Below are positions 16,143 to 39,141 of a DNA stretch of 64,000 nucleotides, in pieces (position 1 is the stretch's first letter; the number at the start of each line of letters is the position of its first letter). The notes beneath the pieces are model-generated. The model was not told where the DNA came from. It ran no database searches and saw only the letters and a list, made by a program, of their open reading frames with translations. Origin of the DNA: an uncultured Tropicimonas sp. (GTDB lineage: Bacteria; Pseudomonadota; Alphaproteobacteria; Rhodobacterales; Rhodobacteraceae); NCBI GenBank assembly GCA_947497945.1, contig CANMIP010000001.1, positions 248,001 through 312,000 on the forward strand. The letters are read 5' to 3'. Both the position numbers and the translations under genes were made by a program.

Positions 16143-18332
16143 TCAGGACTTCTTGCGCAAGGACGAGCGCGAGGCGCCGTAGGTCCCGTATTCATGGGCA
16201 TAGCCATATCGGCGCAGGGATTTCGGGTTCACATGCGTCAGGATCAGGCCGGTCACCTTGGCGCCGACCGAGGTCAGGGCCGAAATCCCCAACTGAACGG
16301 AGCTCTCGGACGTGCTGTCCCATTTGACAGACAGCAGCACCGCATCGGAATGCACCGCGATGCTGCGCGAGTCCGGGAACAGGAGGACCGGCGGCGTGTC
16401 GATGATGATCCGATCGTATTTGCCGCGCAGCTCGCGGATGAAATCGCCAAACACACCCGAGGCGAAGACATCCGCCGCAGAGACCGAAACGTCATCCCCC
16501 GGCAGGATATCGACGCCGAGACGGCTGTCGGAGACGATCGCTTCGTCGAGCGTCGTGTCCCCGGACAGGACCGAGACGAAACCCGGCTTGACCTTGATAT
16601 CGAAATACTGGTCCATGACCCGCCGCCGGATATCGCCTTCCACGATCAGGACGCGCCGGTCAAGCGCCGCATAGTGATAAGCCAGCGAGATCGAGTTCGT
16701 CGTCTTGCCTTCGCCCGGCGCGCAAGACGTCATCAGGATGACCTGGGGCGGCTTGTCGAGATTGGACAGCTCGATGGAGGTTCGCAGGTCGCGGACGGCT
16801 TCCGCCGAGGGTGATGTCGGGCGGTTGAGAATGTAGGGCACAAGCTTCGAGCGCCGCCGGATCGGCATCACCGGAATCTGGCCCACCACCGAATATCCGG
16901 TTGCGTTTTCCAGATCGCGGGCCGTCCGGACGCCCTGGTGGAGCAGCTCCCGGATCAGGACGAACACACAGCCGAAGACAAAACCGATCAACAGGGCCGC
17001 GGCGACCGTGCGCCGCTTGTTCGGCGCAAAGGGAGCGGAGGGCACGACGGCTTGTGAGATGATCCGCGCATCGGCCTTCTGGATCCCGTACTGGGTCGAG
17101 ATCTCCCGCAGGCGCACCAGGAAGCTCTCGTAGATCAACCGGTTGGCCTCGACCTCCCGCTGAAGCTGCTGCAGCGTGACCAGATCGTCCGATTGCCGGG
17201 CAACGGACTCGGCCAGCTCGACCTCGGAGGCCTCCAGCGCCAGCGCCTGCTCTTCGAGCCGTTCGGAGTTCACCAGGCTGCGCGCCCGGACCTGTTCGAC
17301 CCGCCGGTCGAAACCCTCCTGGTCAAACGCTCCGGTACGGTTCTGTTCGGCCAGGCGGTCCAGGAGCGCATCATCGGCCGCTAGCACGATCTGAGCCAGG
17401 TCGCCCGAGGCAATCGCCTCTTCCAGCATCGCGTGCTGGTCCTTCGAACTGTCCGCATTGCGCCGCGTTTCTACGGCCCGGTCCCGCATATCCTTGAGTT
17501 GGCGGTTCATCGCCGCAAGCACTTCGACACTGACAAGGTCGATCGATGCGTTGAAGCTCTTGGCGGCGGCCTCGGATGCCTCCAGGTCTGCCTGAAGCTC
17601 GCTGGCCCGCTCCGACAGCCAGACAACCGCCTGGTCCGTGGCCTCCAGCTTCCGCTGCAACTGATCGTCGACATAGATCTCTGCCAGCGTATCCGCCAGG
17701 CGCGCTGCCTTGACAGGAGAGATCGAGATCGCGCGAATGACAAAGACCGTGCTGTAGTCGATATTCTCGATGCTGAACGCGCCCAGGACAGCCGAAACAA
17801 CAGCCTCCCGCCGCTTCGTCTCCTTGGAGATCTGCTCGATATCGGGAACGACTTGCGTCTGTCCCCCGCGGAGGAGCAGCGAGATCCGAGTGCGAATCGT
17901 GCCGATCATGGATGGCCCGCTTTCCGAGCCTGCACCCTGGGTTTCGGGGAATCCGAACTCCGGGTCCGTCATCAGGTCGAGCCGCTCCACGAGCCGGTGG
18001 CCGAACTCACGCGACCGGAGGATCTCGGTCTCGGTCTGCATCGCCTCCTGGTAGAGCGGCAGGCCGGACACAACGGAATCGATCGGGCTGACCTGCTCCT
18101 CGCGCCCCTCCAGGGCCAGCACGGTCGTGGCGTCATACAGAGGCACGATCCGGTTGACCACGAAATAGGCCGCCGCGACCGCCGCTATGATGGAGAAGGC
18201 CGAAATGATCCATTTGCCGCTCCAGAGAATTCCGAGCAGACTCGCCAGATCGATGTCCTTGACGGTCAGATCTTCGTTATACCCAATCTTGTGAGCGTCC
18301 AGCGTATCCCGGTCCTCGACATTTCTGTTCAT
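16143..18332 (-). CDS. Wzc-like polysaccharide co-polymerase / tyrosine autokinase
   Basis: 729 residues. A Wzz-type N-terminal domain has TM1 near residues 41-60 (WIISAFSIIAAVAAAYFVVN), a long periplasmic coiled-coil region, and TM2 in AAALLIGFVFGCVFVLI. The cytoplasmic BY-kinase domain shows Walker A (SCAPGEGKTTNSIS), Walker A' (VLIVEGDIRRRVM) and Walker B (IIIDTPPVLL). The C-terminal tail is Tyr-rich (RRYGYAHEYGTYGAS), as required for autophosphorylation cycles. Such proteins control chain length and export of capsule or exopolysaccharide. No glycosyltransferase or Wza/Wzx/Wzy gene is nearby, so it is an orphan here. Confidence 0.88.
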   Translation of the reverse strand: MNRNVEDRDTLDAHKIGYNEDLTVKDIDLASLLGILWSGKWIISAFSIIAAVAAAYFVVNRIVPLYDATTVLALEGREEQVSPIDSVVSGLPLYQEAMQTETEILRSREFGHRLVERLDLMTDPEFGFPETQGAGSESGPSMIGTIRTRISLLLRGGQTQVVPDIEQISKETKRREAVVSAVLGAFSIENIDYSTVFVIRAISISPVKAARLADTLAEIYVDDQLQRKLEATDQAVVWLSERASELQADLEASEAAAKSFNASIDLVSVEVLAAMNRQLKDMRDRAVETRRNADSSKDQHAMLEEAIASGDLAQIVLAADDALLDRLAEQNRTGAFDQEGFDRRVEQVRARSLVNSERLEEQALALEASEVELAESVARQSDDLVTLQQLQREVEANRLIYESFLVRLREISTQYGIQKADARIISQAVVPSAPFAPNKRRTVAAALLIGFVFGCVFVLIRELLHQGVRTARDLENATGYSVVGQIPVMPIRRRSKLVPYILNRPTSPSAEAVRDLRTSIELSNLDKPPQVILMTSCAPGEGKTTNSISLAYHYAALDRRVLIVEGDIRRRVMDQYFDIKVKPGFVSVLSGDTTLDEAIVSDSRLGVDILPGDDVSVSAADVFASGVFGDFIRELRGKYDRIIIDTPPVLLFPDSRSIAVHSDAVLLSVKWDSTSESSVQLGISALTSVGAKVTGLILTHVNPKSLRRYGYAHEYGTYGASRSSLRKKS

Positions 18333-18564
18333 CGAAACAGCCCTCGATTCGGCACTTGGACATCAAACAACAACCAACACCAGTTATACAGGCCGTTCCA
18401 TGCACGCGGTTCTCGTTCGTTCAGTAGGAGTTAGTCTCATTCCGTTAATATGACAACAGAACAGAACCGTGAGTCACGGACCTACGGCATTCTTGACATC
18501 TCGTCTGGCAGCCGTGACAGCTGTGGTGTTCGACCGGCCAACCACCAGAAAAGCCTTATCGCCA

Positions 18565-19740
18565 ATGCCAGCCGACCGCAGGATCGAGACAGATGTCGAC
18601 ATCGTCGACCGGTATCTTGCCGCGACGATCCGGGGGGAAATGCCGCTGCTTCCCGAACCGGACGCCCTGCGGATACTGCCGGAAAGGTCGCTGCATCATG
18701 GCGTCTGTGCGCTCGTTCTGTGTCGGCCGGATGCGCTGTCCCGAATGCCGCCGGAAATCGTCGACAGCCTCCGCAGCCAGGCGCTTGCCTTTACCGCGTG
18801 GGAAATCCGGGACCGGGCTGTCCTGATGAAGGCGCTTCTTGCGCTCTCCGAGCGGGGCCTGCCTGCCGTCCTGCTCAAGGGCGCGGCGCTGGCCTATAGC
18901 TGCTATGGCTCGCCAGCCGAGCGGCCGCGCGGCGACAGCGATATCCTCGTCGCCGAGGAGGATTGGGACGCGGCCATGCAGGCCTTGCTGGAGCTCGGCT
19001 ACCAGCGCGACGCCGAGCAGGGCTCAAGCCGAATCCTCCAGGAGGAGTTCACGCTGACCACGGCGGCCGGCAGCACCCATTGCATAGACCTTCATCGCAA
19101 TCTCCTGCCCGCTTTCGCCCTTTCCGATCTCTTCTCGACACCGGACCTGCTTGCCGAGGCCCAACCCGTTCCCGCGCTTGGAGACCATGCGTTTCGCCTT
19201 TCCCTCCCCGACGCCCTGCTGCACGCCTGCATCCACCGCGCCAAGCATTTCAGCACGCCCTATTTCGTCCTAGGCCGGGCCGACTTCACCGCCGACCGGC
19301 TGATCTGGTTCTACGATATGCACCTGCTGGCTAGGGCGATGTCCGACCCCGACTGGGCACGGTTCGAAACCCGCGCCATCGCCTGTGGCGGCGCTCCGCT
19401 GTGTCGCAATGCGCTGGAACGCTGCGAGGCGCTGCTCGGCACCGCCCTTCCCCTCGGCCTGCTCGACAGGCTGGCCAACGCGCCGGAGACCGGAAAGCTC
19501 AGCACGCATCTCGGACGCGCGTCGGTCGCCGGGCGGATCTGGTCGGACCTGCTGTCGGTTCCCGAGGGGCAATCCCGCCTGACTTATCTGCGGCAGATCT
19601 TCCTGCCGCCCGAAGCGCAGATGCGAAAGAGATATCCCCGGCTTGCCGGCCATTCGCTCGCCCGGCTTCACCTGCATCGCTATCTGGAACGGCTCAGATA
19701 CCTGCGCCGTGAACGCCGCCAGCGGAGATCCGACAGGTGA
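18565..19740 (+). CDS. Nucleotidyltransferase-family protein of the lasso-peptide cluster
   Basis: 391 residues from the ATG at 18565 (MPADRRIETDVDIVDRYL); an in-frame GTG at 18469 would add 32 residues, but a TTGACA element at 18493-18498 favours the shorter form. It resembles the NTP_transf_5 family (PF14907): a hydrophobic lead-in AVLLKGAALAYSCYG is followed by the metal-binding RPRGDSDILV at about residues 118-128, the G-S/D-x-D core of nucleotidyltransferases. Relatives occur in paeninodin-type lasso clusters with an HPr-kinase-like gene. Their role is unsettled; tailoring of the peptide has been suggested. It overlaps the ABC exporter gene by 4 bp, so it belongs to the same operon. Confidence 0.75.
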   Translation: MPADRRIETDVDIVDRYLAATIRGEMPLLPEPDALRILPERSLHHGVCALVLCRPDALSRMPPEIVDSLRSQALAFTAWEIRDRAVLMKALLALSERGLPAVLLKGAALAYSCYGSPAERPRGDSDILVAEEDWDAAMQALLELGYQRDAEQGSSRILQEEFTLTTAAGSTHCIDLHRNLLPAFALSDLFSTPDLLAEAQPVPALGDHAFRLSLPDALLHACIHRAKHFSTPYFVLGRADFTADRLIWFYDMHLLARAMSDPDWARFETRAIACGGAPLCRNALERCEALLGTALPLGLLDRLANAPETGKLSTHLGRASVAGRIWSDLLSVPEGQSRLTYLRQIFLPPEAQMRKRYPRLAGHSLARLHLHRYLERLRYLRRERRQRRSDR

Positions 19741-21410
19741 CAGCCAGGTTCCTGTTTTCCCTCATCTCGCCCTATCGCGCCGGTCTGCTGTTGCTGACGT
19801 TCCTCCTGCTGATCCAGTCCGTGATCCTGCTCTGCATGCCCTGGCTCGCCGGGCAGCTCGGCGCGGCCTTCCTGTCGGATGCGACCGGGCATTGGATCCA
19901 GGAAAAGCCGGGCCTTCTGGTGGCCGCGATGCTGGCGCTGCTGGCAGCGGGCGCGGCCTTGCGCATTGCGGCGAACTGGATCCAGATCGGGATTTTCGAA
20001 ACCATTCTGGCCGATCTCAAGAGCCGCCTCTTCGCGCAGCTGCAGGCCCTGCCGCTCCTGTGGCACCAGGACATGCCTCGCGGCAGCCTGCTGGCCCTGT
20101 CCAGCCACGAGATCGGGATGCTCGGGGATTTCATCACCGACACGCTCACCGGATTCCTGCCGCTCCTGCTCACCGCTGCGGGCGCCTCTGTCCTGATGTT
20201 GATGATCGACCCCGCGCTGGCGATCCTCGTGCCGATCCTCGTGCCCGCCTTCTATATCTTCCACAAGATCATGGGCCGGCGCCTGCGGGGGCTGGCAGTG
20301 CGGGTGCGAGAACAGCATGCAGAGGTCGTCACCACGACCGAAGAGATGCTGGAGCTGCTTCCCGTGATCAAGTCCTTCACCGCCGAACCCTTCGAGCAGC
20401 GCCGCTATGACGACCGGATCACCGAGTTGCGCCGACTATCGATGCGGCAGCAGCACATCTACGCGATCCTCGGACCGGTCTCGCAATTCGCCGTCGCGGC
20501 GGCGGCCCTGCTGCTGCTTCTGCTCGCGGGACAGAGCCTGACCTCCGGCGAGCTCGGACCCGCCGAGACGGTCAGCTTCCTGCTCTATGTCGCGCTGCTG
20601 GTCCGGCCCGTGTCGCAGCTCTCGTCCATCTACGGACAGGTCCAGACCGCGCGCGGCACGCTCGCGCGACTGCAATCCGTCTTCTCCGAAACGCCCGAGG
20701 AAACCGGACCCACCGACCGCCCGACCCCCTACGGCGCTATCCGATTTGACGCTGTGAGCTTCGCCTATCCGGGCCGGACGCCTGCCGTGCGCGACCTGGA
20801 TTTCGAGATTTCCGAGGGGGAGATCGTCGCCCTTGTCGGCGATAACGGCGCGGGAAAGTCGACGGCGATCGGCCTGTTGCTCGGCTTCTACCGCCCCGGC
20901 TCCGGGCGGATCACCCTGGGGGACAGGGACATCGCAGAGATGAAACTGGCCGAGCTGCGGGGCGCTATCGGCTACGTGCCGCAGAACCGCCACCTGCGGA
21001 ATGCCTCCGTCCGGGACAATATCGCCCTTGGCGCGCCCGACGCCACGCCGGACAAGATCGAAGCCTCCGCCCGCATCGCCCAGGCGCATGCGTTCGTCAC
21101 CGCCCTGCCGGACGGCTATGACACCCTTATCGGCGACAAGGGCGTCAAGCTCTCGGGCGGCCAGCAGCAGCGGCTGGCGCTGGCCCGCGCCTTGCTGAAG
21201 GACCCCCCGATCCTGATCCTCGACGAAGCGACCTCCATGTATGACCTGGAGGGTGAAGCGGCGTTCGTCGCCGAATGCCGCGACGCGCTGGCCGGTCGGA
21301 CCGTGATCCTGATCACCCATCGTCCCGCAAGCCTCGCCCTGGCCGATCACGTGATCCGGCTGAGCGGCGGGCGCATCGTCGCCGACACGCGGGGCGAAGA
21401 CGCGAAATGA
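19737..21410 (+). CDS. ABC exporter (fused permease and ATPase), lasso-peptide export protein D
   Basis: 557 residues. The N-terminal half is an ABC exporter transmembrane domain with about six helices (first AGLLLLTFLLLIQSVILLCM). The C-terminal ATPase has Walker A GDNGAGKST near residue 370, signature LSGGQQQR near 472, Walker B ILILDEATS near 492 and the ITHR switch near 525. It probably works as a homodimer to export the mature lasso peptide and give self-immunity, the role of D proteins in such clusters. Its stop overlaps the start of the cyclase gene (ATGA at 21407-21410), indicating translational coupling. Confidence 0.88.
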   Translation: MTARFLFSLISPYRAGLLLLTFLLLIQSVILLCMPWLAGQLGAAFLSDATGHWIQEKPGLLVAAMLALLAAGAALRIAANWIQIGIFETILADLKSRLFAQLQALPLLWHQDMPRGSLLALSSHEIGMLGDFITDTLTGFLPLLLTAAGASVLMLMIDPALAILVPILVPAFYIFHKIMGRRLRGLAVRVREQHAEVVTTTEEMLELLPVIKSFTAEPFEQRRYDDRITELRRLSMRQQHIYAILGPVSQFAVAAAALLLLLLAGQSLTSGELGPAETVSFLLYVALLVRPVSQLSSIYGQVQTARGTLARLQSVFSETPEETGPTDRPTPYGAIRFDAVSFAYPGRTPAVRDLDFEISEGEIVALVGDNGAGKSTAIGLLLGFYRPGSGRITLGDRDIAEMKLAELRGAIGYVPQNRHLRNASVRDNIALGAPDATPDKIEASARIAQAHAFVTALPDGYDTLIGDKGVKLSGGQQQRLALARALLKDPPILILDEATSMYDLEGEAAFVAECRDALAGRTVILITHRPASLALADHVIRLSGGRIVADTRGEDAK

Positions 21411-23311
21411 GTGGAATTGCTGCGTGCCTCCGTCTTGATGGCGGCCCTGCGGAGCCCGGTCGGCTCGATCCCGTCCTCGACGCGCTGTCCGCCCAGGGTC
21501 CGGACGGGCGCGGCAGCATGGCCGATGGCCCGGCTCTGCTCGGCCACCGCCTGCTTGCGGCCACGCCGGAATCGCTGCACGAGCCGATGCCGTTCCACCA
21601 TCCCGAGAGCGGCTGCGCTCTTACCGCCGATCTGCGGCTGGACAGTCGCGACAGCCTGATCGCTGAGCTCGGGCTGGCCGGAACGGGCCGGGTGATCGGT
21701 GACGGCGAGCTTGTCTTGCACGCCTGGCTGCGGTGGGGAGAGGCCTGCCCGGAACATCTCCTGGGCGATTTCGCCTTCGCGCTCTGGGATCCGCGAACCC
21801 GCCGGATCTTCGCCGCGCGCGACCATATGGGGCTGAAACCGCTTGTCTGGTGGCACGTGCCCGGGCGCGCCTTCGCCTGCGCAAGTTCGGCACGGAGCCT
21901 GCTGCATTTGCCGGGGCTGCCCGTGCGCCTCAATGAGTTGCGGCTGGCCGAATATCTCGTCGATTTCAAGGGAAACGACGACGTCTCGACCTATTTCGAG
22001 GATGTCTGGCGGCTGATGCCGGGCCATTGCCTGACGGTTTCCGACAAGGGTGTCTCGACGCGGTGCTATTGGCGACCGGAGCCGGTCGAGCCGGTCCTTG
22101 GCAAGAGCGATGCCGCCTATGCCGAGGGTCTGCGCGAGGTGCTGACCGAGGCCGTGCAGGCAAGGTTGCGCTGCAACGGGCAGGTCGGCTCGATGTTGAG
22201 CGGGGGGATGGATTCCGGATCCGTCAGCGCTCTCGCCGCCGGCCTGCTGGCCCAGAGCGGCGGCGGGCGACTGGCGACTTATTCCGTGACCGGGCCGGGG
22301 CCTTCGGACAGCGCCGAGGCGCGCGGGATCGCGGCAGCCCAGCGCATTCCCAATATCGCCCCGGTCCTGATCGACCATTCGCAGCTCGACGAAACCCTCA
22401 AGCAGCGGATCCTGACGCTGTGCCATTCGGTGGACGAACCGCTCGACTACACCGTCCTCGTGCAGCGCTCTGCCTATGCCGCAGCCCAGCAGGCCGGCGT
22501 GAAAGTGGTGCTCGACGGGGCCGCCGGCGATGTCCTGCTCTACGAAAGCAGCCTGATCTACCGGCTGATACGGTCCGGCCGCCTCGGCCGATCCTGGCAC
22601 GAACAGCGTGAACTGGCCGAGATCGGTGGAATGGACCTTTCATGGGCGCGGCAGGAATATCTCAGAACCCTGCGTTCGGCCGCTGTTCCGTTCTGGGCAA
22701 GGCGGTTGCGGCGCGCCTGGAAGCGCCGGATTCCGCCCGCCCTGCCAAGCGCGGCCATTCTCGACCCGGATTTCGCCCGCAGGTCCGGCTTGACGGAAAG
22801 CCGCCGGATCTTTGCCGCAGGGCACATTGTCGAGAATCTCGGCTATTCCGAGCGCCGGATGCTGCGCCTGTCCAGAAGCATCAGCTTCGCCCGCGAGATC
22901 CTTTCCTGGATGGCCGCCGATGCCGGGATCGAGGCGCGCGACCCCTATCTCGACCAGCGGGTCATCCGATATTGCATGACCCTGCCACAGGATCAGTTGA
23001 TCAAGGATGGCTGGACGAAGATCGTCCTGCGGCGCGCCATGCAGGGGATCCTGCCGGACGAGGTCTGCTGGATGCGCGGCAAGGGGCATCTCGGCCAGCA
23101 TCTCTTCGTGGCCTTGATGAACCCTACGGACTGGTGGAAGGACCTGCTGCGCGACAACAGGGAGTATCTGTCCGGGCGTGTTGATTCGCGGTTCCTGTCA
23201 GAGGCGCTGCAATCGGAAAGCCTGTCGCTCGGGCAAGTTCCCGCCATGAACGACACGACCTATGTCATCGCCCTGACGGCCTTCTTCCAATCCCATAAAC
23301 ATCTGTTTTGA
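21407..23311 (+). CDS. Asparagine-synthetase-like lasso cyclase (C protein)
   Basis: 634 residues from ATG 21407; a longer frame from 21275 is inside the exporter gene. The N-terminal class-II glutamine amidotransferase fold (about 1-215) begins MSGIAAC; position 2 is Ser, so the catalytic Cys for glutamine hydrolysis is missing, as in many lasso cyclases that use the peptide's own N-terminus. The synthetase domain has the PPi loop SGGMDSGS at 265-272. The expected reaction is ATP-dependent adenylation of a Glu/Asp side chain in the core peptide and attack by the core alpha-amine to close the macrolactam ring. Its position next to precursors and B1/B2 genes separates it from true AsnB. Confidence 0.88.
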   Translation: MSGIAACLRLDGGPAEPGRLDPVLDALSAQGPDGRGSMADGPALLGHRLLAATPESLHEPMPFHHPESGCALTADLRLDSRDSLIAELGLAGTGRVIGDGELVLHAWLRWGEACPEHLLGDFAFALWDPRTRRIFAARDHMGLKPLVWWHVPGRAFACASSARSLLHLPGLPVRLNELRLAEYLVDFKGNDDVSTYFEDVWRLMPGHCLTVSDKGVSTRCYWRPEPVEPVLGKSDAAYAEGLREVLTEAVQARLRCNGQVGSMLSGGMDSGSVSALAAGLLAQSGGGRLATYSVTGPGPSDSAEARGIAAAQRIPNIAPVLIDHSQLDETLKQRILTLCHSVDEPLDYTVLVQRSAYAAAQQAGVKVVLDGAAGDVLLYESSLIYRLIRSGRLGRSWHEQRELAEIGGMDLSWARQEYLRTLRSAAVPFWARRLRRAWKRRIPPALPSAAILDPDFARRSGLTESRRIFAAGHIVENLGYSERRMLRLSRSISFAREILSWMAADAGIEARDPYLDQRVIRYCMTLPQDQLIKDGWTKIVLRRAMQGILPDEVCWMRGKGHLGQHLFVALMNPTDWWKDLLRDNREYLSGRVDSRFLSEALQSESLSLGQVPAMNDTTYVIALTAFFQSHKHLF

Positions 23312-23503
23312 ATTAAAAATCATGCTGTCAGAGAGGTTTTTTGGCGCATCGGATCTCGCTGTCCGGGCAGCAGGATGCGCCTCCTCAAGGGTCTCCGCGC
23401 ACATCCTCGCTATCACCGGTTCTCGTGAATTGACCGCCATGGCAACGAAAGACACCTTTCGACTGTTCCTTCACGCGGCGCGTATTAGAAACGAGAGAAA
23501 TCC

Positions 23504-23671
23504 ATGACTGTTGATATTCACAGCACCGAGCAGGCATCTACCTCCGCCTACAAGCGCCCGGAGTTCGTTGTTCTCGGCGATGTTCCCGCCATGACGACCT
23601 CGGGATCCAGAGGGAAGGAAAACGGCGGTCATCCAGACAGTGAACCTGGCGGTGGCAAAAAAGGCGGCTGA
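23504..23671 (+). CDS. Lasso-type precursor peptide A1 (55 aa)
   Basis: Start ATG 23504 after a GAGAGAAAT purine stretch. The leader contains Y16, P19, F21, G25 and T31 (YKRPEFVVLGD...T), the YxxPx[LF]xxxGxxxxxT pattern read by B1/RRE proteins, with the Thr expected at -2. The predicted core starts at Ser33 (SGSRGKENGG...) and ends PGGGKKGG, 23 residues. Glu39 would be core position 7 (ring of seven) or position 8 if cleavage is one residue earlier. The core is Gly-rich and charged, with no aromatic residue, so a threaded lasso has no obvious steric plug. It is the first of two precursors, 192 bp downstream of the cyclase. Confidence 0.78.
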   Translation: MTVDIHSTEQASTSAYKRPEFVVLGDVPAMTTSGSRGKENGGHPDSEPGGGKKGG

Positions 23672-23710
23672 TCACCCGGCCACCAACATGGCGTCTCCCT
23701 TAAGTTTTTG

Positions 23711-23739
23711 TTGACACTCGTCCTTTCCTGACTCTAGCT
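23711..23739 (+). promoter_or_regulatory. Candidate sigma70-type promoter for precursor A2
   Basis: A consensus -35 box TTGACA stands at 23711-23716 in the otherwise empty 120-bp gap between A1 and A2. Seventeen bases on is CTAGCT (23734-23739), a weak -10; TAGATA a few bases later is an alternative with longer spacing. A local promoter would let precursor A2 be made in excess of the enzymes, as is usual in RiPP clusters. The -10 is poor, so this is tentative. Confidence 0.35.
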
Positions 23740-23791
23740 CTCATAGATAACGGCGCCGGAAACAGAGCGTCGATCTTTGAGGTGCGGAGAA

Positions 23792-23974
23792 ATGTCAGGC
23801 CAGAAGGATGGACGGGCGAAGCCCGTCCGGAAAAGCTACAAACCTCCAAAACTGGCGATACTGGGCGACGCGGCGACCCATACGGCCTCGGGCTCGACCC
23901 GACAGCCGGAATTCCGCGGCGGCAGGCACGCTGTCGGCGGAGGATGGGACCGGGCTCCAGGTTTGAGACGGTAA
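23792..23974 (+). CDS. Lasso-type precursor peptide A2 (60 aa)
   Basis: Start ATG 23792 (MSGQKDGRAKP) with GCGGAGA just upstream. The leader has the complete lasso recognition motif YxxPxLxxxGxxxxxT: Y16, P19, L21, G25, T31 (YKPPKLAILGD...T). With Thr at -2 the core starts at Ser33 (SGSTRQPEFRGG...), and Glu40 falls at core position 8, the standard place for a macrolactam acceptor. The 28-residue core continues with Arg42, Arg45, His46, Trp52 and ends APGLRR; His46, Trp52 or Arg residues could act as plugs. Leader length and motif positions are the same as in A1. It lies 13 bp before the kinase-like gene. Confidence 0.85.
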   Translation: MSGQKDGRAKPVRKSYKPPKLAILGDAATHTASGSTRQPEFRGGRHAVGGGWDRAPGLRR

Positions 23975-23987
23975 GGGATCTGGTTTG

Positions 23988-24821
23988 GTGATCGAGGACC
24001 TGCTTGAGAAGTATTCCTGGCAGATGGCCGAGTCCAACCCTGGCGGTCAGGGCGCCTCTTCCGGGATTGTCTCCATTCCGCTCGGCGATGCCTGCGAGGC
24101 CGTGATCGACACTGGCAACCGGCGCATCTTCATCGAGAGCGACACCGCCCTGCAGCCGGATTCGCGCGAGCATTACATCCTCGATATCGTTCTTCCGCAC
24201 CTGCTGTCGCATGACGGCCATCTCGTGCTCCATGGCGGGTTTGTCGTCTCGACGGCTGGCGGGATCGGGTTCATCGGCCCCTCTGGCGCCGGCAAATCGA
24301 CCCTGACGGCAAGCTTTCTCGACGACGGCGCGACATTGCTGAGCGATGACACGCTGCTGCTGCGACGCGAGGCGGATGGGGTCATGGTCGAGGCGCTCTA
24401 TCCAAGCCTGCGCCTGTTTCCCGACTCGCTGTCCGGCGTGCTGCCGGATAGCGGCGAAACGCGGACCGTGGCGCAGTATTTCGACAAGCGGCGGCTGGAT
24501 TTCGAGCGGACCGCCGAGCGCTGTCGGGCGGAGCTGCTTTTCCACCTCGAAGAGCGACAGGAGGGGCAGGTCGAGATCTCCCTGCGCCGCCTGGAGCCCG
24601 GCGAAGCCTGCATGGCGCTGCTGAAGAACTGTTTCACATTGGATGTCGCGAGCCGTTCGGAGCTTGGAAACCGTTTCAAACAGGCCACCGAGATTGCCCG
24701 GGACCTGCCGGTCTACGCGCTGCGCTATCCAAGGGAATATGAACGGCTTGCCGAGGTTCGGGCTGAGGTGCTTGCGCTGGCCTCCCGGATCAGGGCAGGC
24801 AATGCCGGTTCAGGACGCTAG
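23988..24821 (+). CDS. HPr-kinase/phosphorylase-like protein of the lasso cluster (K)
   Basis: About 277 residues from the GTG at 23988, preceded by a TAAGGGA ribosome site; a TTG at 23985 is the alternative. The C-terminal HprK-type kinase fold shows Walker A GPSGAGKSTLTAS near residue 100 and the acidic LLSDDTLLL near 120. Related kinases in paeninodin-type clusters phosphorylate the C-terminal Ser of the precursor (family knowledge). Neither precursor here ends in Ser (A1 ends KKGG, A2 ends GLRR), so the substrate is open. It is too short and in the wrong context for the PTS regulator HprK. Confidence 0.8.
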   Translation: MIEDLLEKYSWQMAESNPGGQGASSGIVSIPLGDACEAVIDTGNRRIFIESDTALQPDSREHYILDIVLPHLLSHDGHLVLHGGFVVSTAGGIGFIGPSGAGKSTLTASFLDDGATLLSDDTLLLRREADGVMVEALYPSLRLFPDSLSGVLPDSGETRTVAQYFDKRRLDFERTAERCRAELLFHLEERQEGQVEISLRRLEPGEACMALLKNCFTLDVASRSELGNRFKQATEIARDLPVYALRYPREYERLAEVRAEVLALASRIRAGNAGSGR

Positions 24822-25091
24822 CGGGGGCATTCAGGCCGAAAACTGCATGTCCCTTGGTGAAGTGCCGGAGATCGGCCCCTGCATCTGACGGAGACGGGCG
24901 CGGATCTCGTCGTGGAAGACCTGGCGCAGGCTTTTCCCTGCAAACCCGGGAGGACAGGCCCGCCCTGACCAGGCATGTACAGCCGCACATACATTCTCTC
25001 TGCCCTGTCGATCACGTTGCCGCTTTTTTTTGCCGGGTGAAAGCACTACCTCTCCAAGGTAAGGTTTGTTTCTCGAGAGGGGCGAGGTGTG
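24822..25091 (+). other. Non-coding gap inside the lasso cluster
   Basis: 270 bp without a convincing gene between the kinase-like gene and B1. I looked for a third precursor and found no YxxP...G...T leader in any plus-strand frame. CCTCTC at 25049-25054 can pair with GAGAGG at 25075-25080, next to the B1 ribosome-binding site, and could form a short hairpin affecting B1 translation. Confidence 0.4.
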
Positions 25092-25373
25092 ATGCGTGAG
25101 ATCGATATGTCGACGGTGTACCGCACCAGTTCCGAGGCGATGGCGAGCAAGCTGGGGAGCGAAACCGTCCTGCTTCACCTCGGGTCCGGGACCTATTTCG
25201 GAATGGATGAGGTCGGCACGCTGGTCTGGCAATTGCTTGACGAGGGGCTGACGCCGAAACAGATTTGTAACCGTGTGGCGGAGACGTTCGACGAGGTTCC
25301 CGACACTGTTGGCGACGACATCCTTGCCTTCCTGGAACAGCTCGTGTCGCAAAAGCTGATTTCCCCGGCCTGA
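25092..25373 (+). CDS. PqqD-like RiPP recognition protein (lasso B1)
   Basis: 93 residues from the ATG at 25092, with GAGG four bases upstream. It shows the compact PqqD fold: VYRTSSEAMASKLGSETVLLHLGSGTYFGMDEVGTL reads as two to three beta strands with the typical 'Y.gLNe.G..iW' phrase, then helices (LVWQLLDEGLTPKQICNRVAETF, LAFLEQLVSQKLI). Such RiPP recognition elements bind the leader peptide through the YxxP motif and deliver it to B2 and the cyclase. It is followed 4 bp later by B2, the normal split-B arrangement. Confidence 0.85.
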   Translation: MREIDMSTVYRTSSEAMASKLGSETVLLHLGSGTYFGMDEVGTLVWQLLDEGLTPKQICNRVAETFDEVPDTVGDDILAFLEQLVSQKLISPA

Positions 25374-25377
25374 TCCC

Positions 25378-25815
25378 ATGCCCCTTTCCCGCTTGCCCGC
25401 CAGGATCTCTCGCGCCCGCCAGATGCGCTGGCAGGATTGGCGCGACCTAGTCCGGGCAATGCGCGAACTCTGGCATGCGAACCGGGCGCTGCGCCGGATG
25501 GCAGCCCCAGAGCTCGATCTTGGCAGACCCGTCCAACCCGCGGAAATCCGGCAATCCGACGCGAAAATGGCGGACCTCCTGTCACGTGTCTCCATTGCGG
25601 TCCCGCGCGCGGCGCGGCTCGTCCCCTGGCGGTCCAGCTGCCTGGTTCAGGCGCAGGCCGCGCGGAGCTGGCTGGCCCGGGAGGGAGTTGGCTCGGAGAT
25701 CCGCTTCGGGCTGGATGAGGCCAGGACCGGACCGTTCGAGGCACATGCCTGGCTTGTGGCGGATGGGAAGGTCATCACCGGCGGCGAGATCTCTCACTTC
25801 ACGCCTTTCTCCTGA
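25378..25815 (+). CDS. Transglutaminase-like lasso leader peptidase (B2)
   Basis: 145 residues, typical for a stand-alone B2. It matches the Transglut_core3 type (PF13471): the catalytic Cys88 lies in WRSSCLVQAQAARSWL and the catalytic His123 in FEAHAWLVADG; the third acidic residue is not certain. It cuts the leader from the core after the Thr-x dipeptide in an ATP-linked reaction together with the cyclase. It is the last gene of the cluster, convergent with aguA three bases later. Confidence 0.88.
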   Translation: MPLSRLPARISRARQMRWQDWRDLVRAMRELWHANRALRRMAAPELDLGRPVQPAEIRQSDAKMADLLSRVSIAVPRAARLVPWRSSCLVQAQAARSWLAREGVGSEIRFGLDEARTGPFEAHAWLVADGKVITGGEISHFTPFS

Positions 25816-25818
25816 GCG

Positions 25819-26910
25819 TCAGGCGGTTGGCACCTGCTGCGTGACGCAGTGGATATTGCCACCGCCAAGCAGGATCTCGCGGGTCGCGACCCCGACAATC
25901 TCGTGCTGCGGGAAAACCGATTGCAGGACTTCCCGCGCCTCCATGTCCCGCGCGGGATCGAGCAAGGGGAAGACAACCCGCCCATTCGTGATCAGGAAGT
26001 TGGCGTAGGACGCGGCGAGACGCCGGCCGGCCTCGCGCGACATGTCGTCGGAGGGGTCGATGCCGGCGGCCTCCGCCGCGCTGAGGTAGAGCGGGCCGGG
26101 GATATGAAGCTTGTGGACCGTGAGCGCACGGCCTGCCGCGTCGGTCTGGCCAGCCAGGAAAGCGAGCGCCTCCTGCGAGATCGCGTGCTGGGGATCGTTC
26201 TCGTCATCGCACCAGGAAAGCAGGATCTCGCCGGGGCGGGCGACATGGATCAGGTTGTCGATATGGCCGTTGGTCTCGTCCTCATGGAGGCCACGCGGCA
26301 GCCAGATCACCTTGCGCGCGCCGAGACAGGCCTTGAGCCGGGCCTCGATCTCGTCCCGGCTCAGATCCGGGTTTCGCGAGGGATGCAGCAGGCATTCCTC
26401 GTTGGTGTAGATCGTGCCGTCGCCATCGCTGTGGATCGCCCCGCCTTCGAGCACGAAGCCGGCGCGGTAACTGTCGTCGCGCTGGATCTCGCAGATCTTG
26501 CCCGCGACCTGGTCATCGCGGTCCCAGGGAAAATAGAGACCGTCGACCAAGCCGCCCCAGGCGTTGAACTCCCACTGGATGCCGCGCCGCCGTCCCTTGC
26601 CGTCGATGACATACGTCGGACCGATATCGCGCATCCAGGCATCATTGGTCGACATCTCCACCACGCGGACCGCTTCGGGCAGGCTGCGCCGCGCGGTCTC
26701 GTATTGCGCGGCGGAGACGGCCATGGAAACCGGGGTTACCTCGCAGATCGCGGCGGCGAGGGCGGTGAAAGCGGCCTGTGCCGGTTTGGCGCCGTTGCGC
26801 CAATTGTCGGGGCGCTCCGGCCAGGCCATCCAGATCTCGTCCTGCGGCGCCGCTTCGGACGGCATGAAGAAGCCATCTTCAGCGGGAGTGGTCTTGTGGA
26901 TCCTGCTCAT
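25819..26910 (-). CDS. aguA: Agmatine deiminase / peptidyl-arginine deiminase family
   Basis: 363 residues, full length. The pentein-fold signatures are clear: NDAWMRDIGPTYV, FVLEGGAIHSDGDGT, HEDETNGHIDNL (catalytic Glu/His region) and the C-terminal GGGNIHCVTQQ with the nucleophilic Cys. It converts agmatine to N-carbamoyl-putrescine and ammonia in putrescine synthesis. It is a single gene on the minus strand, with no aguB next to it. It shares the 3' border of the lasso cluster but is on the opposite strand, so it is probably not part of it. Confidence 0.88.
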   Translation of the reverse strand: MSRIHKTTPAEDGFFMPSEAAPQDEIWMAWPERPDNWRNGAKPAQAAFTALAAAICEVTPVSMAVSAAQYETARRSLPEAVRVVEMSTNDAWMRDIGPTYVIDGKGRRRGIQWEFNAWGGLVDGLYFPWDRDDQVAGKICEIQRDDSYRAGFVLEGGAIHSDGDGTIYTNEECLLHPSRNPDLSRDEIEARLKACLGARKVIWLPRGLHEDETNGHIDNLIHVARPGEILLSWCDDENDPQHAISQEALAFLAGQTDAAGRALTVHKLHIPGPLYLSAAEAAGIDPSDDMSREAGRRLAASYANFLITNGRVVFPLLDPARDMEAREVLQSVFPQHEIVGVATREILLGGGNIHCVTQQVPTA

Positions 26911-37626: not shown

Positions 37627-39141
37627 ATGCCCGTCCCCTTCCTGACGCGGATCGCCGTGGTTTTCTTCCTGATGCTCGCGGCGACATTTCCCGCACTGGC
37701 AGAGCCGCGCTTCGCACTGATCGTCGGCAACCAGTCCTATGGCAGCGTCACCCCGCTCGACAACCCGGCGGCCGACGCCCAGCTCGTCGCCGACGCGCTG
37801 GAGCAGCGCGGTTTCACCGTCAAGCTGCTGCTGGATGCCGACCAGATCACGCTCACCCGCGCCATCGCCCAGTTCGGTCGCGACCTGCGCTCGGGCGGAG
37901 AGGAAACCACCGGGCTGTTCTATTATGCCGGTCACGCGGTCCAGAGCTTCGGGACGAACTTCCTGCTGCCGGTCGACGTCTCGCTGACCGATGCGGCGGA
38001 TCTGAGCCTCGTGGCGCTGCGCGCCGATGCGGTCCTGCGGCAGATGTCCTCGGCGGCAAACCGGACGAATATCGTCATCCTTGACGCCTGCCGCAACAAT
38101 CCCTTCGTCGATATTCCCGACATGAACGACAACGGTCTTGCCGAGATGAACGCCCCGACCGGAACGCTCATGGCCTATTCGACCTCGCCCGGCAGTGTCG
38201 CGCTGGATGGCACCGGCAATAACAGTCCCTACACGCAGGCGATGGTCGCCGAGATGCAGAAGCCCGGTCAGACCATCGAGCAGATGTTCAAGCGCGTGCG
38301 TGGCACGGTGCTGGAGGCGACAAAAGGCAGGCAGACGCCCTGGGAGACATCCTCGCTGACGACGGATTTCCAGTTTACCCCGGAGCGCAAGCTGAGCCCG
38401 GAGGAGATCGCGGAGAAACAGTTCTTCGACTCCGTGAAGGCGTCGCGGGACCCGGTCCAGATTGTGCTCTTCCTTCGGACCTATCCGGGGTCGGTGCATT
38501 TCGAGGAAGTGCGCGGGCTGCTCAGCAACGTGCTCGACGGCGAGCGCGCAAAGACGGGTGCGGTGGCATCTGCCGAACCGGCCGCGCCTGCCCCGCCGCC
38601 CGTGGCGGTGCCCAAGGAGCCGGAAGCCTCCGAACGCGAGTTGATCGAGGCAGCTCAAGGCTCGGGAAACCCGGTGGATTTCCAGGCCTATCTCGACGCG
38701 TTCCCGGACGGCGTCTTTGCCGAGTTGGCCCGGATGGAAATGGCGGCACTGGTCAAGGCGGCGCCAGAGCCGGAGCCTGCCGCTCCGGCGCCGGACCCCG
38801 TTGTCGAAGCCAGCGCCAAACCGGCCGAACTTGCACCGCTCGCACCGGAAGACCTGACGATGCAGACACCGCTTGCCGTTGCTGACCAAGCCCTCGCCGG
38901 CAAGACAATCGCGATGCTGATCGAAGGCTCGCCGCTCTTCGCACCAATCGAGGGCCTGCCGGATTCGGTCTGGTCCGGACGGCAATGCGCTACCTGCCAT
39001 GTCTGGAACCAGGAAGAGCTCTGCGAAGTCGGGGGAGGCTATGTCACCGCGCAGAACACGCGGGCGCTCAGCAAGCAGCACCCCTATGGCGGCGGCTTCA
39101 AGCGGGTTCTGAAAACCTGGGCGGAAGGCGGGTGCCGCTGA
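37627..39141 (+). CDS. Secreted caspase-like (peptidase C14) protein with C-terminal CxxCH motif
   Basis: 504 residues. Signal peptide FLTRIAVVFFLMLAATFPALA. The caspase-fold domain (27-250) has the His103/Cys155 dyad in FYYAGHAVQS and VILDACRNNP, so it should be active, with Arg/Lys specificity likely for this family. A low-complexity Pro/Ala linker follows (310-335 and 380-410), enclosing a short helical repeat (residues 335-375). The last 75 residues contain CATCH at 454-458 and further Cys at 466 and 503. CxxCH is the heme-c attachment motif, so a monoheme domain or a zinc/disulphide site is possible. It is coupled to the YceI-OmpA gene. Confidence 0.82.
   Translation: MPVPFLTRIAVVFFLMLAATFPALAEPRFALIVGNQSYGSVTPLDNPAADAQLVADALEQRGFTVKLLLDADQITLTRAIAQFGRDLRSGGEETTGLFYYAGHAVQSFGTNFLLPVDVSLTDAADLSLVALRADAVLRQMSSAANRTNIVILDACRNNPFVDIPDMNDNGLAEMNAPTGTLMAYSTSPGSVALDGTGNNSPYTQAMVAEMQKPGQTIEQMFKRVRGTVLEATKGRQTPWETSSLTTDFQFTPERKLSPEEIAEKQFFDSVKASRDPVQIVLFLRTYPGSVHFEEVRGLLSNVLDGERAKTGAVASAEPAAPAPPPVAVPKEPEASERELIEAAQGSGNPVDFQAYLDAFPDGVFAELARMEMAALVKAAPEPEPAAPAPDPVVEASAKPAELAPLAPEDLTMQTPLAVADQALAGKTIAMLIEGSPLFAPIEGLPDSVWSGRQCATCHVWNQEELCEVGGGYVTAQNTRALSKQHPYGGGFKRVLKTWAEGGCR

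Follow-up and report, generated by a model that had tools for sequence, protein, structure and literature searches.

Kinase-bearing lasso peptide clusters in which the B protein is split into B1 and B2 have been published for proteobacteria since 2016 (PMC5067487; PMC8498205). Kinases of the paeninodin type are described as phosphorylating the C-terminal Ser of the precursor (PMC8498205; PMC9266682), and the C-terminal Ser was also shown to be the acceptor of the proteobacterial kinase SyanK (PMC8498205). Another acceptor is reported for BsfK of Bradymonas, which phosphorylates Ser3 of the core, tolerates Thr3, and is stimulated by B1 (PMC10368454). LppK of Paenibacillus, an HprK-like kinase of another peptide family, is likewise described as acting on core Ser3 (PMC13381572). 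A cluster of this general kind was explored in the genome of an uncultured Tropicimonas sp. (contig CANMIP010000001.1, positions 248,001 to 312,000). This stretch of 64,000 nucleotides is referred to as the window. The operon at 18565-25815 of the window appears to be a complete split-B, kinase-bearing biosynthetic set for two lasso peptides, in which the kinase would phosphorylate Ser3 of the core. A probability of about 0.75 is given to this reading.

Eight open frames, all on the + strand, were found in the order N-D-C-A1-A2-K-B1-B2 in the reading-frame listing, and family matches were obtained for all six enzymes. N (18565-19740) is a PF14907 (NTP_transf_5) protein (2.5e-40, above cut-off) and a putative modifier of the phosphorylated peptide; its start was picked by eye and the open frame reaches back to 18469. 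D (19737-21410) is an ATP-binding cassette (ABC) exporter with fused membrane and ATPase domains, PF00664 (ABC_membrane, 1.1e-40) and PF00005 (ABC_tran, 5.9e-35), both above cut-off. C (21407-23311) is an AsnB-like lasso cyclase whose best NCBIfam match is NF033535 (4e-128, 428.8 bits, under the NCBI cut-off of 525). The two precursors, A1 and A2, are followed by K (23988-24821, with a GTG start chosen over an alternative TTG at 23985). K is a weakly HprK-like peptide kinase (TIGR04352, 1.9e-8, far under the cut-off in the NCBIfam scan) and carries the BsfK catalytic residues H-G-G-G-K-S-D-D, from His82, at identical spacing. B1 (25107-25373, in a frame that begins at 25089) is a PqqD-like leader-binding protein, and B2 (25378-25815) is a transglutaminase-like leader peptidase. 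They are separate genes and not one fused B protein.

The gene content and the catalytic, leader, and core motifs are observed directly, as is their conservation. The N-terminus of C is MSGIA, and Ser2 is present in 4 of 4 aligned cyclases. Glutamine-dependent relatives have Cys where this cyclase has Ser2. Cys88 and His123 of B2 align with Cys and His, respectively, in all 65 B2 proteins compared. Homology of B1 and B2 was confirmed with hidden Markov models: PF05402 for B1 (2.1e-19) and PF13471 (9e-22) and NF033537 (1.1e-18, 67.9 bits against a cut-off of 33) for B2 were above cut-off, and the lasso-specific NF033536 for B1 (8.1e-14) was below it. No isopeptidase or TonB receptor was found with Pfam among 28 other genes of the window, those up to 42.8 kb. 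An earlier note on this DNA, made from the letters and reading frames, had claimed the one-direction gene set with its open frames, a cyclase lacking the N-terminal Cys, the Cys88/His123 pair of B2, and the absence of an isopeptidase or TonB receptor. All of these held within the scope given above.

The precursors were located by pattern. The pattern asks for Tyr, Pro, a hydrophobic residue, Gly, and Thr at set distances in the leader, with an acid at core position 7-9 after them. It has 2 matches in six frames of the whole window, and these are A1 and A2. In 60 simulated windows (first-order Markov sequences) the mean was 0.1 and the maximum was 1. A1 (23504-23671) has 55 residues, the predicted core SGSRGKENGGHPDSEPGGGKKGG, and Glu7 as the predicted ring acid. 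A2 (23792-23974) has 60 residues, the predicted core SGSTRQPEFRGGRHAVGGGWDRAPGLRR, and Glu8. Both show the features expected of lasso precursors: a YxxPxL-type leader, Thr at -2, and, at core position 7 or 8, an acidic residue. The ring motif x-G-Ser/Thr of their cores also occurs in the precursors of relatives. They sit between C and K, and 13 of the 15 loci that share this gene order have their precursors in that place. Family scans of A1 and A2 gave no significant match (best E 0.15, the chance level). Together with the family scans, the pattern bears out the earlier claim of a complete split-B lasso cluster with a kinase, a PF14907 protein, and two different cores.

Each enzymatic step, the order of the steps, and the use of Ser3 are proposed from precedent. 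B1 would bind either precursor, A1 or A2, by its YxxPx[LF] leader and hand it to K, which would phosphorylate Ser3 within the future ring. B2 would then cleave two residues past Tyr+14, where the leader Thr is followed by one more residue before the cut. C would activate the ring acid (Glu8 of A2, Glu7 of A1) and couple it to the core N-terminus, and D would export the finished peptide. N probably attaches a sugar or a nucleotide to the phosphate, as reported for PsmN (PMC9266682). The cluster is best read as belonging to the split-B, kinase-bearing lasso family, with products predicted to be ring-phosphorylated and perhaps glycosylated. The calculated [M+H]+ of the A2 lasso is 3002.54, rising to 3082.51 with a phosphate and to 3244.56 with a phosphate and a hexose; the corresponding values for A1 are 2134.00, 2213.97, and 2376.02.

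Relatives of the cluster were sought with the cyclase in the contigs of 84,980 species, each represented by a single genome. The scan gave 199 relatives of the cyclase, and the analysis used the 80 best loci. The counts that follow refer to 40 non-cyanobacterial loci, which include the window and exclude the duplicates L006, L007, and L034 and the later L091-L093, and to 41 loci classed as cyanobacterial from record titles. The 46 non-cyanobacterial precursors include A1 and A2, with one spurious row (L019 at 11237) dropped. The pattern requires Thr at -2 and fixed spacing, so precursors with Ile or Val at -2 could not enter the 46, nor the 60 cyanobacterial ones, and the 41 of 41 with Thr at -2 is circular because Thr is built into the pattern.

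Ser or Thr is found at core position 3 in 41 of these 46 precursors; the runner-up among the first 12 core residues is position 1, with 20. Both A1 and A2 have Ser3. A C-terminal Ser is present in 6 of the 46, for example in both precursors of L014, and in neither A1, which ends in GG, nor A2, which ends in RR. A looser form of the BsfK catalytic motif fits 69 of 74 kinase matches. Because Ser/Thr3 is conserved, BsfK and LppK use Ser3, and K shares the BsfK catalytic motif, Ser3 is taken as the acceptor, and K most likely phosphorylates inside the ring and not at the tail end. It is very unlikely that the system is strictly of the paeninodin type, with K phosphorylating the C-terminal residue and N glycosylating that phosphate. 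The gene kinds do match those of the paeninodin and pseudomycoidin clusters, the proteobacterial SyanK uses a C-terminal Ser (PMC8498205), and the six relatives' precursors that end in Ser could be read this way, but the terminal Gly of A1 and Arg of A2 have no hydroxyl side chain and 40 of the 46 precursors have no terminal Ser. The earlier description of the cluster as paeninodin-like fits the gene kinds, the split B, and the kinase, but is misleading in that it fails on the C-terminal Ser acceptor. Several observations weigh against Ser3 phosphorylation or against the proposed role of N. The likeness of K to BsfK is drawn from the catalytic residues, and K falls far under the NCBI HprK-related cut-offs. 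BsfA has Ile at leader -2, and Ile or Val there is a feature of the bsf type, but both A1 and A2 have Thr; the change I(-2)T in BsfA is reported to alter the degree of phosphorylation (PMC10368454). In L037 and L071 a kinase is present but core position 3 is neither Ser nor Thr, and L005 and L006 show the opposite, Ser3 with no kinase in the locus. Among the cyanobacteria, a kinase is present in 39 of 41 loci, yet Ser/Thr3 occurs in 5 of 60 precursors. For N, PsmN is the sole analogy (PMC9266682).

The ring of A1 also bears on how the cluster is to be read. The acid is at core position 8 in 39 of the 46 precursors, and A1 is unique among them in having its sole candidate ring acid at position 7. 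A decayed copy of the cluster was found in the same genus (L093, 8604-10577), in which a truncated cyclase runs into a precursor relic and the kinase is split over two frames. The relic, VTTAGSIGDAEN, has TT before the core as in A1 and Glu at 8, so that A1 resembles an eight-residue ring from which one residue is missing. It may be a precursor that naturally forms a seven-residue ring, or one that is failing. It is possible, though unlikely, that the window's cluster is itself partly decaying, so that A2 is matured and A1, having lost one ring residue, serves the enzymes poorly or not at all. Altering the ring by a single residue is described as usually lowering lasso yield (PMC13352647), which fits this explanation, as do the unusual acid of A1 and the state of L093. 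However, none of the eight frames is interrupted in the window, A1 retains the leader motif, Ser3, and a Glu, and rings of 7 to 9 residues are on record for lasso peptides (PMC9266682), among them the seven-residue rings of xanthomonins (by a title cited in PMC13352647). An extremely unlikely explanation is that the same enzymes turn A1 and A2 into another kind of modified peptide that is not a lasso. The cyclase, B1, and the kinase are under the NCBI curated cut-offs, and a Bacillota peptide family is described with the same types of kinase, N, and exporter but another peptidase (PMC13381572). Against this, B2 is present with its catalytic Cys and His, and both A1 and A2 obey the lasso rule in their leader spacing, the Thr at -2, and the position of the core acid (7 or 8). 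Together, A1 and A2 pose the question of whether one machinery can close both seven- and eight-residue rings.

The gene order N-D-C-K-B1-B2 is found in 15 of the 40 non-cyanobacterial loci, the window included, and the other 14 are all alphaproteobacterial by title. The same order is present on a plasmid of Antarctobacter heliothermus, which is outside this count. Of 30 loci in which the ring motif occurs, 9 have two or more precursors. By these counts the layout is not unusual, and nor is the possession of two cores; the earlier suggestion that such a layout with two cores would be unusual in Rhodobacterales does not stand. The cluster is patchy. It was found in at least 3 of 295 genomes of the family, including the window's own, and in at least 1 of 385 of the class, that one being the window's own, with at most 4 (family) and 3 (class) candidates scored per genome. 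It was also found in 3 of 9 genomes of the genus and in 2 of 72,556 plasmid records. In the cyclase tree, the window groups with Tateyamaria (L008) and Marivivens (L017) (100/99) and then with Rubellimicrobium (96/94). These alphaproteobacterial relatives reach no more than 50% cyclase identity to the window. No Bacillota are named in the titles of the 80 loci. The window's source belongs to the roseobacter group, and a lasso call by antiSMASH is reported for another roseobacter, Pseudoruegeria sp. M32A2M (PMC9728324), which may or may not have the same cluster. Lasso-type cyclases were also seen on contigs titled archaeal (L055, L056, and L058), which may be mis-binned; L056 and L058 also have kinase, B1, and exporter matches.

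The window's own genome possesses a second lasso cyclase, 38% identical to C, at 6762-8883 of L005 (G000 contig 18). A precursor lies directly downstream of it, with the core TGSVNKSENNGHRDGRR and an acid at 8. No K, B1, or B2 matches were found around it within the 16 kb fetched, and its neighbours resemble transposases, judged by eye. In the whole genome there is one PF13471 match, which is the window's B2. One full-length kinase was found, together with two further matches that are weak and partial. Of the two PqqD matches, one is the window's B1 and the other is weak and lies in a frame of 737 residues on the contig of the orphan cyclase. The L005 locus, if functional, may borrow B1 and B2 from the window's cluster.

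A gene for a Wzc-type polysaccharide co-polymerase with a tyrosine-kinase-like domain (Wzz, GNVR, and AAA_31) lies upstream of N on the opposite strand (16143-18332, - strand). It is divergent from the cluster, and is linked to it rather than shown to be part of it. Among 25 other alphaproteobacterial loci, 5 have a Wzc gene beside them, against an expectation of 0.15 (Poisson 5e-7 with the loci treated as independent), although three of the five are Rubellimicrobium, so that the loci are not independent, and many loci end at contig ends. Linked genes were detected with phmmer, using the window's Wzc as query, and the background density is that of Pfam Wzz, with 64 matches over 158.3 Mb from 40 related genomes. 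Weaker Wzc matches were seen in 17 of the 41 cyanobacterial loci and in the gammaproteobacterial L040 and L049, as raw counts with no background control. The Antarctobacter copy of the cluster adjoins glycosyltransferase genes. A lasso-polysaccharide neighbourhood is published for Bacilli, where its function is given as unknown (PMC13381572). No statement on such a neighbourhood in alphaproteobacteria was found in the open-licence papers searched. It is conceivable, but doubtful, that the ring-phosphorylated lasso peptides of alphaproteobacteria are accessories of a surface polysaccharide, a role already suspected in Bacilli, in which the PF14907 protein would add a sugar of that pathway to the Ser3 phosphate and the peptide would decorate or regulate the Wzc polysaccharide. 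The present counts extend this association of kinase-bearing lasso clusters with polysaccharide export genes beyond Bacilli.

Other genes were noted in or beside the related clusters. A methyltransferase with a PRMT_C-like domain is present, mostly between K and B1, for example in L019 (11011-12171) and L015 (11572-12798). Strong matches were also found in L013, L018, L020, L021, L022, L026, L027, L028, and L031. A remnant of this gene between K and B1 of the window was sought in 24701-25200 and gave a single match with E = 0.9. A calcineurin-like phosphoesterase is near the lasso clusters of L007 (11210-11953), L006 (4752-5468), and L026 (1254-2012), and L007 and L026 also carry a kinase. In the window, an agmatine deiminase (25819-26910, - strand) converges on B2 with a 3-base gap. 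Citrullination was considered because this gene abuts B2, its Pfam family is named peptidyl-arginine deiminase, and A2 has many Arg residues. A tailoring role of this kind was rejected on two grounds: the protein matches TIGR03380, agmatine deiminase (562.3 bits against a cut-off of 381.8), and the other loci searched gave no homologue of it at E <= 1e-4. As far as these tests go, it is unrelated to the cluster. Farther away, a caspase-domain protein was seen at 37627-39141 (PF00656, 1e-37). An Rfam scan of the window gave zero matches at the gathering threshold, and promoter-like and terminator-like sites in 18300-25900 were no more numerous than expected by chance.

The cluster can be placed by comparison with the named systems. 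Proteobacterial clusters of the isopeptidase/TonB type have a fused B and an adjacent isopeptidase, and the window has neither among the genes scanned. The SyanK cluster of Sphingobium yanoikuyae is proteobacterial with a split B and a kinase, as is the window's, but its acceptor is a C-terminal Ser and the order A-B1-B2-C-K-D is given for its proteobacterial kinase clade (PMC5067487; PMC8498205); this comparison was made by description and not by sequence. The Bacillota clusters of paeninodin and pseudomycoidin share with the window the split B1 and B2, cyclase, exporter, and HprK-like kinase, and that of pseudomycoidin also carries N. They differ in the C-terminal Ser acceptor, which is lacking in the window's precursors, and in the order C-A-K-B1-B2-D as against N-D-C-A-A-K-B1-B2 (PMC8498205; PMC9266682; PMC5067487). 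The alphaproteobacterial N-D-C-K-B1-B2 clusters, such as those of Tateyamaria pelophila (L008) and Rubellimicrobium (L009, L024, and L075), are built like the window's, and several such relatives have the methyltransferase gene between K and B1 that the window does not have. The bsf cluster of Bradymonas sediminis has the A, B1, B2, C, D, K, and N gene kinds in common with the window, and is also like it in the YxxPxL leader, the lack of a C-terminal Ser, the ring Ser3, and the kinase catalytic residues (PMC10368454). Its ring acid is at 8, as in A2. It has Ile in place of Thr at leader -2, Asp in place of Glu as the ring acid, and Thr in place of Gly at core residue 2, and one precursor is described for it where the window has two (PMC10368454). 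With a kinase that acts on core Ser3, the bsf cluster is a better precedent than paeninodin. Phosphorylation of ring Ser3, as shown in one deltaproteobacterial lasso cluster (PMC10368454), is predicted to be the rule in a broad alphaproteobacterial family.

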